NCBI GenBank assembly: GCA_030589945.1 | Contig: JAUUZN010000009.1 | Span: 1 to 50,769, forward strand | Reading direction: 5' to 3' | DNA from: Gammaproteobacteria bacterium | GTDB taxonomy: Bacteria; Pseudomonadota; Gammaproteobacteria; Enterobacterales; GCA-2746155 | Length of the DNA stretch: 50,769 nucleotides | Part shown: piece by piece, positions 40,854 through 47,537 of the stretch | Numbering within the stretch: the stretch's first letter is position 1 | How the letters are laid out: the number at the start of each line of letters is the position of its first letter | Position numbers and translations under genes: made by a program | The notes under the pieces: model-generated | What the model saw: only the letters and a program-made list of their open reading frames with translations | Database searches by the model: none | Told to the model about the DNA's origin: nothing

Positions 40854-41627
40854 TTAATTAGATTGTTCCTGATGTTTTACTGAATCGCGTATTTTCTTGA
40901 TTAATGTATCATCAGTTTTGTGACTACCAACCAGATACTCAACAGCCTTGTATTTATAATTGTTAATTTTGATCAGTTTCGATTTCGGATTATCTAAAGT
41001 TGATCTAAAATAATTTATTCCTTCTTTAGATAAGATGATAAAATCAACACGCTCTCTTAAAACTAATTTAATACCATGATTGATTGATGCAGAAGACATC
41101 ACAATTATTGAACTATCTGGGAATCCAAATTCCTTTGCAATGTTGCACATAACGGTTTTTGCGACGCAACTCACAGTAAAATTCCCCGATGATACATCAA
41201 TTGTTAAAGATGATAGCTTACTATTAAGGCCATAAAGTCCATAGTTTATAGTATGCAGGGGCACGAGCCACTTATAGAGATGTTCTCTCTCAGTGGTACG
41301 TGTCATGGGAAAGATAAACAGATTCCTTTTTTTGTTTATCTCCTCTAAACCTCTTTTCCAAGGAATGTAGTTAAATTTATAGTGTAAATTAGTAGGCCTA
41401 AGAATCGAATCTAATTTATCTACAAGTGTACCAACCATATTTCCCTGTTCATTCATGTAGACAAAAGGAGGGTTTAATTCACTTCCTATAATGATGTCAT
41501 TATTTGAATTTTGAGTCTCTGCAGCAAAGGCAAGATTGCTTAACATGAGCAACAAAAATGTAATTAGCCTCGATGGGTTAGCAAGGCTCGACAAGAGATT
41601 AAAATATTTGTTAATTATTAAGGACAT
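40854..41627 (-). CDS. Periplasmic solute-binding protein, family 3-like
   Basis: 257 residues from the ATG at 41627 (a TTG at 41633 is in frame). A signal peptide ends LAFAAE. The SBP_bac_3 fold is recognised by IIIGSELNPPFVYMNEQGNMVGTLVDKLDSI at the start and FIFPMTRTTEREHLYKWLVPL. No permease or ATPase lies nearby, so it is either a stand-alone sensor-type binding protein or its transporter is elsewhere. It sits between racemase remnants A and B. Rather AT-rich. Confidence 0.8.
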   Translation of the reverse strand: MSLIINKYFNLLSSLANPSRLITFLLLMLSNLAFAAETQNSNNDIIIGSELNPPFVYMNEQGNMVGTLVDKLDSILRPTNLHYKFNYIPWKRGLEEINKKRNLFIFPMTRTTEREHLYKWLVPLHTINYGLYGLNSKLSSLTIDVSSGNFTVSCVAKTVMCNIAKEFGFPDSSIIVMSSASINHGIKLVLRERVDFIILSKEGINYFRSTLDNPKSKLIKINNYKYKAVEYLVGSHKTDDTLIKKIRDSVKHQEQSN

Positions 41628-41791
41628 AAACAATCACATTATTTGGGAATAACACTCAGTCTCCATATTTTTGTCATGCAGATAATTGACGTCACTCAAC
41701 TCATAAATAGCAGCATGTAAACGTCCATCAGCATTAGCCAACATAGCACGTTAAGGCGATTAGATAAAAGGGAATAGTGATGTAGAGCAAT

Positions 41792-41909: not shown

Positions 41910-41985
41910 GGGTAAATTTGTTGTGAGTTTTGCTAAGGTTATAATTCCAAAGTTTGCATTTTTAGTGATACTCAAAGCAAACACA
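41910..41985 (-). pseudogene. Fragment of an M17 aminopeptidase gene
   Basis: Minus strand translation FALSITKNANFGIITLAKLT, then TNLP, aligns with VALGVNKNAVSGIKTLAKLT, then KSLP, of the aminopeptidase at 38276-39721 (its DNA at 39407-39482). 16 of 24 residues agree without gap, and DNA agrees clearly. The frame ends at the racemase remnant. It shows that an extra copy of this gene once stood here. It also shows that the in-frame GTG extension of the next gene is spurious. Confidence 0.7.
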
Positions 41986-42021: not shown

Positions 42022-42819
42022 ATGAACTCCTTTAAACCTATTGTATTAATTTGGCTGATATTTAATTGTAGTGCAACTTTTGCACTTACTTTGTTGACTC
42101 AAGATGAGTTAATGGAATTTTTAGGAACTGCTGAAGTAATTAAGATAGAGAATACTAAACTTGGGATTACCAAACCCAAAAAGATTACTTTAATGAAAGA
42201 CGGACTTACATTGAGAGCCGTTTTTAAATCACATACTGAGAAAATTCGATTTACAAGAGGCAATAACTTTAAAAGAGTGGTTAATCAGGCCGATCGATAT
42301 GAGAATGATAAGGCTGCATACGAACTGGCACAATTGATGAATATTACAATGATTCCAGCCACCGTTATTCGTAAAATTAATAAACAAAAAGGTGTTGTAC
42401 AATTGTGGGTTGAAGATTCAATTGTCAAGAAAGACATCTATCAAAGCAAGAGTAACGAGTTAGATGTTTGCCCCTTTAAAAAACAAAAGTCAATCATGCA
42501 TGTATTCGACATACTTATTTATAATGATGACAGAAACTTAGGTAATGAACTTTATACACTAAAAGATTGTAAGCTTTGGATGATTGATCATTCACGTTCA
42601 TTTAGATTAAAAAAGAAGGTGCCTAAATATTTAAAAACTAAGAAGATTCGGATGTCGAATGAGCTTGCTGATGTACTTAGGCAACTTAAAATTGATGAAC
42701 TTGAAGAACTGCTCAGTAACTATATTTCAATAAAACAAATAAAAGCTATTATTGATAGAAGGAATTTAATTCTGAAAATTTGGGAAAAAAATAATAAGCC
42801 GAATTATCTAAAAGAATAG
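42022..42819 (+). CDS. Exported kinase-like protein (PI3K/HipA/FAM20-like fold)
   Basis: 265 residues from the ATG at 42022; an upstream GTG start at 41923 runs over an aminopeptidase remnant and is rejected. A signal peptide ends at about residue 22 (NCSATFA-L). Kinase-like residues in order: K69 in LRAVFKSH as candidate ATP-binding lysine, E94/E101 in the YENDKAAYELAQLM helix, catalytic loop YNDDRNLGN (D170, N175), and metal-binding D189 in MIDHSRSF. This pattern is shared by PI3/4-kinase-like, HipA-like and FAM20-like kinases. A periplasmic or secreted kinase is implied. Substrate is unknown. Confidence 0.72.
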   Translation: MNSFKPIVLIWLIFNCSATFALTLLTQDELMEFLGTAEVIKIENTKLGITKPKKITLMKDGLTLRAVFKSHTEKIRFTRGNNFKRVVNQADRYENDKAAYELAQLMNITMIPATVIRKINKQKGVVQLWVEDSIVKKDIYQSKSNELDVCPFKKQKSIMHVFDILIYNDDRNLGNELYTLKDCKLWMIDHSRSFRLKKKVPKYLKTKKIRMSNELADVLRQLKIDELEELLSNYISIKQIKAIIDRRNLILKIWEKNNKPNYLKE

Positions 42820-42895: not shown

Positions 42896-44671
42896 TTAGT
42901 GGATATTCATTTTCAAGACAAGTTCTTTATAACGCTTTTCCTGGAATGCAGGCTTTAGAAAGGGACTTATCATTAGTCTCAGGAGTCCGGGATCTTTTTG
43001 TTTATAGGCTCTCTCAAGCCAGTCCAGACACTGCTGAATTTCACCTCGAGCGCAATAAATTTCTGCAATTTGATAAGCACTATCATGAGCTCCTCGCTTG
43101 ATGAATCTTGCCAATGCCTCATCTGATTTTGCTTTGTTACCCAGATTTGAATAAGCTATCGCTTGTGTCATATTCATTGGAGCGTCTCTTGTAATTTTGT
43201 TGGTAAGCAAGAGAGCATGTTCGCTATTCCCAACGGCCAGATCCACACGGGCATGAAGTCTTACAACAGATTGAGTTTCAGTTGAATTTGTATATGCGAC
43301 TTCAATTTCTGCCAATGCCTGTTGATAATCACCCATGTAGAGATAAGCTTGAATAAGCCTGCGTGACATGAGAGTAGTCATTGGGTCAAGAGTTAAGGCC
43401 ATCTGAGCATAAAGCACTGCTTGTTGATGCTTACCCATTATGGAATATAAATAACTCAGGCTTTCGTATGCACGTGCAGTGTTAGGATTGATCTCTATAG
43501 CAAGTTCAAAATCAAGTAGAGCACCTTTAACATCAAAATCGAACCATAACTTGTTAAGTGCCCTGAACACAAAGGCTATAGCTAAATCAGGATCGATCTC
43601 TAAAGCATTGTTAATTGCCATTCTGGCCATCTGGGGTCCTTCAGTAAGTGAAATGGCTCCAGACTTCGTTAATACATTTAGAATAAGACCTCTAAAAGCG
43701 TGAGCAGTGGCGTAGGTGTTATCGAAATTAATGGCATCATCAAAATATTTCAGAGCTGTTTTTAATTCAGATTTATTTAAGAAATGTAAACCTTTCAAGT
43801 AGGATGTATATGCCTCAGGAACAACTTTGTGGACACCAACTTTAATATCAGCAGAATCGCCCATTAACTTAATTTTCAACACGGTAACTATTGCAGCTGA
43901 AAGTTCATCCTGAATAGCAAAAACATCCGTAAGTTCTCGATCATAGGATTCAGACCACAGATGACGATCAGAACTAGCTTCAATGAGCTGTGCTGTTATT
44001 CGAATTGTTGTTCCCGACTTACGAACACTACCTTCTAATATATGGTCAACTCCGAGTTGCTTAGCTACCTTTTTTAAATCAAGTTCTTTACCTTTGAAGG
44101 CAAAAGATGATGACCGAGACGTCACATGAAGATTGGGTATTTGCGACAGAACATTGAGTATCTCTTCCGAAATTCCATCAGAGAAGTATTCCTGCTCTTT
44201 GTCTGAAGACATATTCACGAACGGTAGTACGGCAATCGATGCGCCTACAGGTTCTTTATCGACTTTGTTTTGCTGAGCTGCTTCAACTAAAATTTCTTCA
44301 ATAACTGCTTCATTAGGTTGCGTTTGAAAGCGGCTTTCATAAATAAAATAACCGAGTGCTACTGCCAATAAACCAATGATAACGAAATCTAACTTACGAC
44401 CAGAATGAGCAAAGACGGCTTCCTCAGAAGATAGTTCGGATTCTTTCTTGATGCCATCGGGAGTAATCTCAAATGCCCAGGCGAAAAATATCGCGAAAGG
44501 AAAACCAAACATGCCGACGATTACTAAAAAAGTGATGGTCCAATCAGGTAATGCTAAGGCTGGAACAATGACATCAGCTACCTGAATTACAACCCAAGCA
44601 AGCACAAGATAGGCAACACCTACCTTAAATACATTCCGTTTCTTGAGTTTCGTGAAGAATGAATCTGCCAC
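42896..44671 (-). CDS. TolB-like/TPR membrane protein, copy 1
   Basis: About 591 residues. An N-terminal module has two membrane helices in FFTKLKKRNVFKVGVAYLVLAW and a FPFAIFFAWAFEITPDGIKKE motif, and a third helix follows (about 100-115). A TolB-like domain (SIAVLPFVNMSSDKEQEYFSDG to ELTDVFAIQDE) is at about 145-275, and then TPR repeats. I place the start at GTG 44671, preceded by GGAAG, because copy 2 can only start there; an ATG at 44683 is in frame. Partner of the TonB receptor in context; family proteins are often next to TonB receptors. Confidence 0.85.
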   Translation of the reverse strand: MADSFFTKLKKRNVFKVGVAYLVLAWVVIQVADVIVPALALPDWTITFLVIVGMFGFPFAIFFAWAFEITPDGIKKESELSSEEAVFAHSGRKLDFVIIGLLAVALGYFIYESRFQTQPNEAVIEEILVEAAQQNKVDKEPVGASIAVLPFVNMSSDKEQEYFSDGISEEILNVLSQIPNLHVTSRSSSFAFKGKELDLKKVAKQLGVDHILEGSVRKSGTTIRITAQLIEASSDRHLWSESYDRELTDVFAIQDELSAAIVTVLKIKLMGDSADIKVGVHKVVPEAYTSYLKGLHFLNKSELKTALKYFDDAINFDNTYATAHAFRGLILNVLTKSGAISLTEGPQMARMAINNALEIDPDLAIAFVFRALNKLWFDFDVKGALLDFELAIEINPNTARAYESLSYLYSIMGKHQQAVLYAQMALTLDPMTTLMSRRLIQAYLYMGDYQQALAEIEVAYTNSTETQSVVRLHARVDLAVGNSEHALLLTNKITRDAPMNMTQAIAYSNLGNKAKSDEALARFIKRGAHDSAYQIAEIYCARGEIQQCLDWLERAYKQKDPGLLRLMISPFLKPAFQEKRYKELVLKMNIH

Positions 44672-44714
44672 ACTATCTTCCATAATTCGAATTATTATTT
44701 ATCTGTTGGAAACG

Positions 44715-44927: not shown

Positions 44928-47537
44928 ATGCCTCAAAATTTCAATCTAAGGACTCTGGCCTTATCGGTGAGCCTAATATTCACCACCACAACGGCATATG
45001 CAGCTGAAGTTAAAGAAGACAACGCTGATGACGAACGACTTGTTATTCTCGGCGCAAGAGTTGCACCTCGCTCTGTTACAGACTCACCGGTGCCAATCGA
45101 CTTGATTTCTGGAGAGCAATTTGTACAATCTCCTTCCGGGAATCTACTCGATACAATGAGTAATCTTGTACCTTCTTTTAACGTTAACGTACAACCAATC
45201 AGTGACGCTGCCACATTGGTTCGTCCTGCCAATATGCGCGGCTTGCCACCCGATAACACCCTAGTTTTGGTTAATGGTAAACGTCGCCACCGCTCAGCTG
45301 TTATAGCCTTTCTTGGAGGTGGCCTATCCAATGGTGCACAGGGCCCTGATATTTCAGTTATTCCAAGCTTGGCTCTGCAACAGGTAGAGATATTACGTGA
45401 TGGAGCTGCTGCCCAGTATGGCTCTGATGCAATTGCCGGAGTCATGAACTTTGTGCTGAAAGATGACAATGCCGGTGGTGTAGTCAAAGTAAGAATTGGC
45501 CAGTATAAAGAAGGTGATGGCGATTCAATTCTAGTGACTGGTAACTTCGGTGTGCCCCTGGGCGAGAAGGGTTTCGCTAATATTACCTATCAATTCAAAG
45601 AATCTGACGCTACAAGTCGCAGTATTCAAAGAGGTGATGCGGCAGCAATAGAAGCTGCGGGTTTACCTGTTGCAAACCCTGCACAAATTTGGGGTTCACC
45701 AGAAATTAGTGACGATATTAGTATTTTTGGAAATTTTGGCCTTGACCTGTCTAACGATGCTGAAGCTTACCTATTTGCCAACTATTCAGAACGTCATGTT
45801 GAAGGCGGCTTCTTCTTCCGTAACCCTCTAACACGTTCAGGTGTTTACCTTGGTGAGAGATTTTTGAATGGAGAATGGGTAAGTCGTCCACGACCAGGTC
45901 CTGACCGTGGTGCTTGGGATCAATTACCCGGTACAATTCTTGTCGGCGATATGGAAGGGGGTGATTCTGCACAACGCTGTTATGATCTCCTGCCTGGAAA
46001 CGGTAGAGTTAACATCGTCAATAATATACCCGATCAAGCAGCTTTAGACATTTTGCAAGCCAATAATTGTTGGGCCTTCAATATGCTCTTTCCTGGAGGA
46101 TTCACACCTCGATTTGGTGGTGATGTCATCGACAGTGCAATCACTGCTGGAACGAAAGGCTACTTCAAAAACGATATAAGTTACGACTTCAGTGGGACTA
46201 TAGGCCGTAGTGAAGTTGTCTTTAGGCTGTTTAATACTGTTAATGCATCTATGGGTTCAAATTCACCCACTGTTTTTAACCTTGGTTCTTATATAGAACT
46301 GGATAAATCAGCCAATGCCGACTTCACCCAAGAAATACAGGTAGAAGGTTGGGATTTCCCTCTGCAATTAGCCTACGGGTACGAATATAAGAATGATTCC
46401 TTTGAAATTGTTGCTGGGGAACCGGCCTCTTTTGAAGTAGGACCTTTATATAGGCAAGGTTTTAGTGTTGGCTCTAATGGTTTTGGAGGCTTTCAAGAGG
46501 CTTCTGCTGGTGTTAACAGTCGTCATAATCATGCTCTGTACCTTGACATAGAAGCACAAGTTTCTGACACTGTGCTGATCGGTGGTGCTGTTCGTACCGA
46601 AGATTATTCAGATTTTGGTAGCACATTCGACGGCAAATTAACCACTCTAATTAACTTAACAGATGAAGTATCATTTCGTGCTTCAGTAAATACTGGGTTT
46701 CGAGCGCCAACAGCAGGACAGGCAAATATTCATAATGTAACTTCTGGATTTTTTGAGAATATTCGATCTGATCGGGCAACTCTTCCACCCACACATCTAG
46801 CAGCAATCTACGTTGGAGCCACAGCCTTAGAACCTGAGGAATCAAGAGCATTTTCATTTGGTTTTGTTGCTAAAATGGATAATCTATTTGCAACACTAGA
46901 CTTTTTTCAAATTAATGTGGTTGATCGCATCACCACAAGTCAGACATTTCGTCTAGATGATGATGATAAGAGAATACTGGATCAACAAGGCGTAGCAGAC
47001 GCACTGACTCTTGATACTATAAGATTTTATACGAATGCTTTCGATACCACAACTGAAGGCATCGATTTGGTAGTAAACTACAGTTTGGATCTTTGGGGTG
47101 GCACTACTAGTCTTGCTCTTGTTTCGAGTTACGTTACAACTGAGGTTATTAGATCGGATCCAATTACTGTTAATGATCTAAGAATATTTCAACTTGAAAA
47201 CGCTCTACCAAAGACTAGAAGCAGTTTCACTGTTAATCATCAACAGGATGACTGGCGTTTGACTGCACGCCTAAACTACTATGGTTCTTATACTGAGACT
47301 CACTTGGGTGTTCTAGCGTTATTAATTGAATCTGAAGCAGAAGTTACAGTTGATCTATCAGTGACTTACGACATAAATCAAGCATTCACCATAACTGTTG
47401 GCTCTCAAAATTTATTTGATGAGCATCCTGAGGTAAATGAAGACTTTGGTAGATTTGTTGGCGCTAAATACTCTACAACTTCACCTATGGGATTTAATGG
47501 TGCTTACTACTATGCTGAGCTGACATACAACTATTAA
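44928..47537 (+). CDS. TonB-dependent outer membrane receptor
   Basis: 869 residues with a signal peptide (about 1-26). The plug domain (about 50-170) has PVPIDLISGEQF, NMRGLPPDNTLVLVNGKRRH and the EILRDGAAAQYGSDAIAGVMNFVLK box. The rest is a 22-strand barrel. The last residue is aromatic (LTYNY-stop). The plug type resembles receptors for iron complexes or carbohydrates/peptides; the substrate is unknown. No Fur box seen upstream. It lies between the two TolB/TPR genes, which read in the opposite direction, and is followed by the TerB-like gene. Confidence 0.9.
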   Translation: MPQNFNLRTLALSVSLIFTTTTAYAAEVKEDNADDERLVILGARVAPRSVTDSPVPIDLISGEQFVQSPSGNLLDTMSNLVPSFNVNVQPISDAATLVRPANMRGLPPDNTLVLVNGKRRHRSAVIAFLGGGLSNGAQGPDISVIPSLALQQVEILRDGAAAQYGSDAIAGVMNFVLKDDNAGGVVKVRIGQYKEGDGDSILVTGNFGVPLGEKGFANITYQFKESDATSRSIQRGDAAAIEAAGLPVANPAQIWGSPEISDDISIFGNFGLDLSNDAEAYLFANYSERHVEGGFFFRNPLTRSGVYLGERFLNGEWVSRPRPGPDRGAWDQLPGTILVGDMEGGDSAQRCYDLLPGNGRVNIVNNIPDQAALDILQANNCWAFNMLFPGGFTPRFGGDVIDSAITAGTKGYFKNDISYDFSGTIGRSEVVFRLFNTVNASMGSNSPTVFNLGSYIELDKSANADFTQEIQVEGWDFPLQLAYGYEYKNDSFEIVAGEPASFEVGPLYRQGFSVGSNGFGGFQEASAGVNSRHNHALYLDIEAQVSDTVLIGGAVRTEDYSDFGSTFDGKLTTLINLTDEVSFRASVNTGFRAPTAGQANIHNVTSGFFENIRSDRATLPPTHLAAIYVGATALEPEESRAFSFGFVAKMDNLFATLDFFQINVVDRITTSQTFRLDDDDKRILDQQGVADALTLDTIRFYTNAFDTTTEGIDLVVNYSLDLWGGTTSLALVSSYVTTEVIRSDPITVNDLRIFQLENALPKTRSSFTVNHQQDDWRLTARLNYYGSYTETHLGVLALLIESEAEVTVDLSVTYDINQAFTITVGSQNLFDEHPEVNEDFGRFVGAKYSTTSPMGFNGAYYYAELTYNY

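Follow-up and report, generated by a model that had tools for sequence, protein, structure and literature searches.

A bacterial family of exported kinase-like proteins with phosphatase fusions and adjoining ATP/ADP carrier genes: a possible route to phosphorylation outside the cytoplasm

Eukaryotic Fam20 kinases, which in animals phosphorylate secreted proteins, need ATP transported into the lumen. The protein described here, encoded in a stretch of 50,769 nucleotides (the window, by which the whole of the analysed DNA is meant), resembles Fam20C and hydra Fam20 in its predicted fold (Z of 17–19), in its catalytic and metal-binding aspartate motifs and in a presumed action outside the cytosol, but its family is bacterial, has a domain of about 240 residues, comes with a phosphatase as a fusion or as a pair, is linked to a nucleotide carrier and is hardly recognised by the Pfam Fam20C model. 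The type II PI 4-kinases of the PI3-PI4 family are similar in fold (Z of about 19) and their Pfam model gives a weak match, but the window protein falls under the Pfam cut-off, appears to be exported and gives no sign of a lipid substrate. Its best named sequence model is that of the TIGR03843 (SCO1664) family, for which its score is far under the cut-off and which assigns no function. The CotH spore-coat kinases, described as atypical kinases related to Fam20C in PMC12189002, have an exported appearance and are encoded upstream of a nucleotide carrier in five loci, but they form a separate Pfam family (PF08757), of which the window's genome yielded no member.

Carriers of this kind, the NTT-type ATP/ADP translocases (TLC, PF03219), have been characterised in plastids and in parasites, which use them to import ATP, and are also carried by free-living bacteria, with HEAT and cNBD fusions reported (Major et al. 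2017, PMC5381601); the word “kinase” occurs 0 times in the main text of that paper. The carrier linked to the present family matches solved ADP,ATP carriers and, in most cases, TLC; it differs in adjoining exported kinases in free-living bacteria and in often bearing a He_PIG domain. For the phosphatase half found in relatives of the window protein, the nearest solved kin is Shewanella psychrophilic phosphatase I (PDB 1v73/2z72), whose solved chains of 336–342 residues have no kinase half; the window protein, for its part, lacks the phosphatase half. The fold and the separate parts are therefore of kinds already known. For the combination of kinase, phosphatase and carrier no report was found in the open-access literature, a search that took in few subscription journals and no bioRxiv, and an earlier report is not excluded.

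The window protein, its predicted fold and its neighbours

The 265-residue open reading frame in which the original prediction had recognised an exported kinase is present as described (Table 1); its start codon is uncertain, since translation from the in-frame GTG at 41923 would yield a protein of 298 residues. In the N-terminus, MNSFKPIVLIWLIFNCSATFA, a hydrophobic core reaches a best 11-residue Kyte-Doolittle mean of 2.3; its signal-like character was judged by eye and hydrophobicity without a dedicated predictor. An AlphaFold2 model built on 81 sequences (pLDDT 90.4, pTM 0.86) has the two-lobed kinase fold of the Fam20/PI4KII/HipA kind, so that the outcome that would have refuted the proposal, a structure prediction without such a fold, did not materialise. 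The top solved matches in Foldseek were DrFam20C1 and human PI4KIIalpha, each with an E-value of 1.9e-8. With VIA-align 2, where rows differing by ≤1 in Z were counted as tied, hydra Fam20 (Z 19.1, 232 residues aligned, rmsd 4.2) and PI4KIIbeta (Z 19.0, 231 residues, rmsd 4.0) came first, followed by Fam20A, Fam20C and Golgi casein kinase entries (16.9–17.8), CtkA (16.0), HipA (12.0) and CotH (11.7), with PI3K-type kinases also lower down.

By sequence the protein is far less easily placed. NCBIfam TIGR03843 matches residues 94–251 with an E-value of 1.8e-12 and 47.2 bits, under its 172.4-bit cut-off, and the Pfam models for HipA_2 (PF20613, 21.5 bits vs a cut-off of 27), PI3_PI4_kinase (PF00454, 20.7 vs 27.1 bits, E 4e-4) and Fam20C (PF06702, 10 vs 26.8 bits, E 0.69) are weak or insignificant. 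A direct PDB sequence search returned only chance matches, and the window protein alone as query found no relatives at E≤1e-3 in genome contigs or viral contigs and nothing among phage and plasmid records (E≤0.01). Searching the genome contigs with an alignment gave 190 relatives, the best 80 of which were retained for all locus counts and, together with the window protein, make up the 81-row alignment.

Of the residues that had been proposed as catalytic, K69, DDRNLGN (with D170 and N175) and IDHSRSF (with D189) are found in the window protein and satisfy the expected set of a lysine, a catalytic aspartate and asparagine and a metal-binding aspartate, roles that we assign by analogy. Their conservation goes beyond chance: N175 and D189 are invariant in the 81 rows and D170 is present in 80, although the latter figure is partly selected, since one of the two patterns used for scanning contains D170, whereas N175 and D189 lie outside both. 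The lysine is less constant, position 69 being K in 57 of the 81 sequences and replaced in the other 24 by R (20), Q (3) or H (1), with arginine in many of the Acidobacteriota members. The helix glutamate of the original prediction is an aspartate in the window protein, D96, at a position where the alignment has E in 46 rows, D in 31, N in 3 and Q in 1.

The gene had also been placed beside a TonB/TolB-TPR cluster. The TPR/FlgO-like and TonB-receptor-like neighbours are real, but a partnership is doubtful: a relative of the TPR protein is seen at just 3 of the other 80 loci (L022, L027 and L037; best 80 of 190 relatives), too rarely for a functional partner, as which it was rejected, and the neighbourhood is probably incidental. 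Among the open reading frames of the window, neither a phosphatase gene nor an NTT adjoins the kinase gene, whose GC content is 0.308 vs 0.397 for the window.

Table 1. Features of the window and positions of CotH–NTT gene pairs on other stretches (L numbers denote loci).
Feature	Position	Strand	Basis
Exported kinase-like protein, 265 aa, stand-alone architecture	42022..42819	+	ORF, relatives, structure model
Probable signal peptide, residues 1-21, cut after SATFA	42022..42084	+	Sequence, hydrophobicity, pLDDT ~49 over residues 1-20
Kinase-fold domain, residues 27-258	42100..42795	+	Alignment, structure model, VIA matches
K69, putative nucleotide-binding lysine	42226..42228	+	8/8 rows in smaller alignment; 57/81 K in larger
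D96, conserved acidic helix residue (E or D in relatives)	42307..42309	+	81-row alignment
Putative catalytic loop N168-D-D170-R-N-L-G-N175	42523..42546	+	D170 80/81, N175 81/81
Putative metal-binding motif I188-D189-H-S-R-S-F194	42583..42603	+	D189 and F194 81/81, H190 75/81
TPR/FlgO-like membrane protein, convergent downstream neighbour; probably outside the system	42896..44683	-	ORF list, domain search
SBP_bac_3 solute-binding protein, divergent upstream neighbour; no link shown	40854..41633	-	ORF list, domain search
TonB-receptor-like ORF	44928-47537		Named by eye, not by search
CotH (exported look) followed by NTT	L136 2810-5970; L137 2983-6167; L138 3284-6603; L158 3028-5801; L198 3104-6360		Neighbour scan

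Export and phosphatase pairing among the relatives

Members of the family come mainly from Gammaproteobacteria (Kangiella, Aliikangiella, Halieaceae, Neiella and Lysobacter) and from Acidobacteriota (best 80 of 190). Under a crude hydrophobicity rule, signal-like N-termini are found in 69 of the 80 family members vs 136 of 402 neighbouring open reading frames. Export, as originally predicted, is thus suggested by the signal-peptide-like start of the window protein and by its recurrence in the family, with no evidence of a cytosolic location; the location itself is without experimental test.

At 52 of the 80 loci (best 80 of 190) a calcineurin-like, Shewanella-type PPP phosphatase makes up the N-terminal half of an exported fusion protein, and the kinase domain follows it as the C-terminal half. 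The closest solved relative of the phosphatase half is the Shewanella cold-active protein tyrosine phosphatase, both by sequence (E 4e-27) and by fold (E 5e-18, for a fusion model with pLDDT 92.9), and its nine metal-ligand and motif positions are intact in 43 of 46 fusions; it also matches bis(5'-nucleosyl)-tetraphosphatase models, under their cut-offs. In some fusions with a recognisable phosphatase half the kinase half is degenerate (L130, L131, L132, L125, L126 and L128). The other 28 kinases stand alone like that of the window, an architecture whose exported forms are common in the Acidobacteriota, and for 6 of them the phosphatase is encoded by its own gene on the fetched stretch (L072, L073, L074, L079, L095 and L096), which in L073, L074, L095 and L096 lies immediately past the kinase frame or overlaps it. 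Because the phosphatase is fused in one lineage and adjacent in another, gene architecture points to the two being functionally paired.

The Shewanella-type phosphatase domain is missing from the window protein. In the tree this protein adjoins the fused clade, with weak support (94/79) and on a long branch, a position from which one may suppose that it has lost a phosphatase half. A phosphatase encoded elsewhere in the window's genome was considered and not upheld, as no relative was found in that draft (92% complete, 224 contigs), though a second kinase copy at the end of contig C109 is incomplete there and, since the contig end cuts its frame, could be a fusion.

Genetic linkage of the kinase family to an NTT-type carrier

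The commonest neighbour of the kinase family is a membrane protein matching Pfam TLC (ATP/ADP transporter). A profile made from an alignment of 20 kinase-linked NTT neighbours (A5) matched solved ADP,ATP carrier proteins with E-values of 3e-27 and 7e-20; TLC (PF03219) matches 15 of the 20 rows and He_PIG 10 of them, at the C-terminus in the three that were examined singly. Such a carrier is encoded on the stretch at 41 of the 80 kinase loci (best 80 of 190), in 36 of 52 fused and 5 of 28 stand-alone cases, and lies ≤300 bp from the kinase in 34. By a rough estimate (about 110 NTT matches in 369 genomes, with an assumed genome of 3.2 Mb) some 0.08 NTTs would be expected by chance in the same number of bases. 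The remaining 39 loci, 23 of the 28 stand-alone ones among them, lack an NTT on the stretch, some stretches ending at contig ends. For the 40 loci of the first count, carrier genes on the strand of the kinase lie downstream of it in 18 and upstream in 10, and those on the opposite strand lie downstream in 11 and upstream in 1.

Most of the kinase-adjacent NTTs belong to one clade of 45 rows (41 kinase loci, 3 CotH loci and the NTT of the window's genome; SH-aLRT 88), and a smaller second group is found elsewhere in the NTT tree. A CotH kinase gene lies directly upstream of the NTT in 5 of the 72 NTT stretches scanned, end to end with it in L136 and L137, and the three of these five loci on which Pfam CotH was run gave E-values of 2.5e-57 to 2e-41. 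Three of the CotH-adjacent NTTs fall within the kinase-linked clade, and a fourth clusters with those of three kinase loci in another part of the tree. Because CotH-adjacent and kinase-adjacent NTTs group together, similar carriers accompany two different families of exported kinases. A related NTT was also seen beside a gene for a lipoprotein-like HAD subfamily IIIB acid phosphatase (L140 3750-4679, L141 2772-3647, and L139).

The window's genome (G000) encodes an NTT of the linked clade on another contig, C178 (L120 5860-7566). It ends in a He_PIG (putative Ig) domain and nests in the tree among NTTs that adjoin the kinase fusion in Aliikangiella and Kangiellaceae. Pfam TLC (PF03219) has no match in this genome at E≤1, nor in the C178 reading frame at E≤0.1; the frame was found with alignment A5 and is called an NTT on the strength of the clade in which it falls, where TLC does match other members. 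The genes flanking it were read by eye and are presumably ruvC-like and ruvA-like; a conserved ruvC–NTT–ruvA site was looked for among the kinase loci and not seen. That this carrier serves the window kinase from its separate contig is inferred.

Across 99 genomes of the same order, the kinase family occurs in 11, the window's included, and an NTT (E≤1e-20) in all 11 of these vs 1 of the 88 others (Fisher 9.5e-14; by genus 4/4 vs 1/50, 1.6e-5). These values are descriptive and overstate the evidence, the genomes being related and kinship uncorrected. In a class-wide sample of 369 Gammaproteobacteria genomes, 88 have NTTs, mostly without this kinase, which gave 3 strong and 3 weak matches; the genomes with weak kinase-profile matches (G145, G189 and G301, of which only G189 has an NTT) were excluded from the counts. 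Since NTTs are commoner than the kinase in this sample, they are not tied to it alone and have other roles besides serving it.

The type of NTT covaries with the state of the kinase in the 13 genomes examined, 8 with an intact kinase and 5 with a degenerate one (G007, G031, G072, G264, in both copies, and G428, from the whole-genome search). The linked type is present in 7 of the 8 (G000, G020, G043, G052, G063, G090 and G097; the contigs of G043, G063 and G097 are those of loci L075, L066 and L061) vs 0 of the 5 (Fisher 0.0047, with no kinship correction); the assignment rests on the tree in six, and in G020 on a score of 431 bits and on the NTT directly adjoining the kinase. The exception, G001, belongs to the window's genus and is 89% complete; it has an intact kinase with no adjacent NTT and only an NTT of the general clade. 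The degenerate-kinase genomes have, by score, nothing but general NTTs, or in G428 one of a sister group. Within genus g7, an intact kinase and an adjoining linked NTT go together in G052 and G090, and both are lacking in G007, G031 and G072. The scores had already been seen when the line between linked and general types was set, and the idea of covariation already existed when the kinases of G264 and G428 were checked; both fitted.

Proposed mechanism and alternative readings

We consider it somewhat probable that the product of the window gene is a Fam20/PI4KII-like kinase of the periplasm, or one exported in some other way, that it is a stand-alone form of a domain which in most gammaproteobacterial relatives is fused to a phosphatase, and that it receives its ATP from a dedicated carrier; the kinase activity, the use of ATP as donor, the direction of transport and the substrate are inferred. 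In such a scheme an inner-membrane NTT would pass ATP from the cytosol to the periplasm and take up ADP in return, the exported kinase would spend the periplasmic ATP in phosphorylating an envelope or secreted target (most likely a protein, possibly a glycan or lipid), and the fused or neighbouring phosphatase, where present, would take the phosphate off again. Plastid NTTs transport in the direction of ATP import. Counting against this reading are the ATP import by characterised NTTs, the loci that lack an NTT, the stand-alone forms that mostly do so, the absence of a phosphatase or NTT beside the window gene and of any phosphatase relative among the matches in its draft genome, the general-clade NTT of G001, the many NTTs in genomes without this kinase, the replacements of K69, and the low GC content and long branch of the window copy.

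The usual objection to periplasmic kinases in bacteria is that there is no ATP there. The NTT linkage names a concrete and testable supplier, and the NTT-linked family is a candidate answer to the scarcity of ATP outside the cytoplasm; it also offers a possible role for the NTTs of free-living bacteria, in a family otherwise viewed as a hallmark of energy parasitism. The phosphatase fusions of the kinase family and the adjoining ATP/ADP carrier gene suggest a possible route to phosphorylation outside the cytoplasm in some bacteria. We see the chances as evenly balanced for a wider claim, that many Gammaproteobacteria and Acidobacteriota possess a dedicated envelope phosphorylation in which an ATP-exporting NTT serves a Fam20-like kinase with its own phosphatase, the carrier clade being paired with at least two exported kinase families (CotH included) and missing where catalytic residues are lost. 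If true, this would be reversible phosphorylation beyond the bacterial cytoplasm, with kinase and phosphatase in one exported chain and a connection to the animal Fam20 kinases, and a bacterial counterpart of the phosphorylating secretory pathway of eukaryotes.

An exported Fam20-like kinase might instead obtain ATP without the NTT, by acting during its own export, on leaked or released ATP or with another donor, the linkage then reflecting a different shared pathway. The many loci without an NTT would be explained in this way, as would the window and G001 kinases, which have none adjacent, and the many genomes that have NTTs and no kinase. We nevertheless think it unlikely, given that the linkage is met repeatedly, in three common arrangements of the genes and on several branches of the NTT tree, that it covaries with catalytic integrity, and that the CotH kinases share the same NTT arrangement.

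A different transfer reaction or a small-molecule target is improbable in our judgement. The protein would then be an exported AMPylase, a nucleotide salvage enzyme or a lipid or glycan kinase, with the NTT and phosphatase engaged in scavenging nucleotides or phosphate. PI4KII structures do score equal to those of Fam20, the phosphatase half has its sub-threshold tetraphosphatase matches and some related NTTs adjoin an acid phosphatase B gene, but that half is nearest to a protein-tyrosine phosphatase by both sequence and fold, and the kinase catalytic D, N and D are retained. AMPylation or use of another nucleotide, both raised in the original prediction, is neither supported nor excluded.

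That the window copy represents the decaying remainder of a fusion, its phosphatase half lost and its kinase half disappearing, would suit its weakly supported place beside the fused clade, its long branch and low GC content, the lack of a detectable phosphatase in its genome and of an adjoining NTT, and the degenerate kinase halves among its relatives, but we give this little credence in view of the full set of catalytic residues, the uninterrupted frame with its own signal-like start, the linked-clade NTT retained in the genome and the frequency of stand-alone exported forms in Acidobacteriota.

Stand-alone kinase-domain genes of the family also occur in tandem, two on L084 (5923-7562) and three on L098 (1-5220). 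Among the 72 NTT stretches of the class sample, 25 were seen by eye to carry an exported-looking aldo/keto reductase (e.g. L176 3978-4961).
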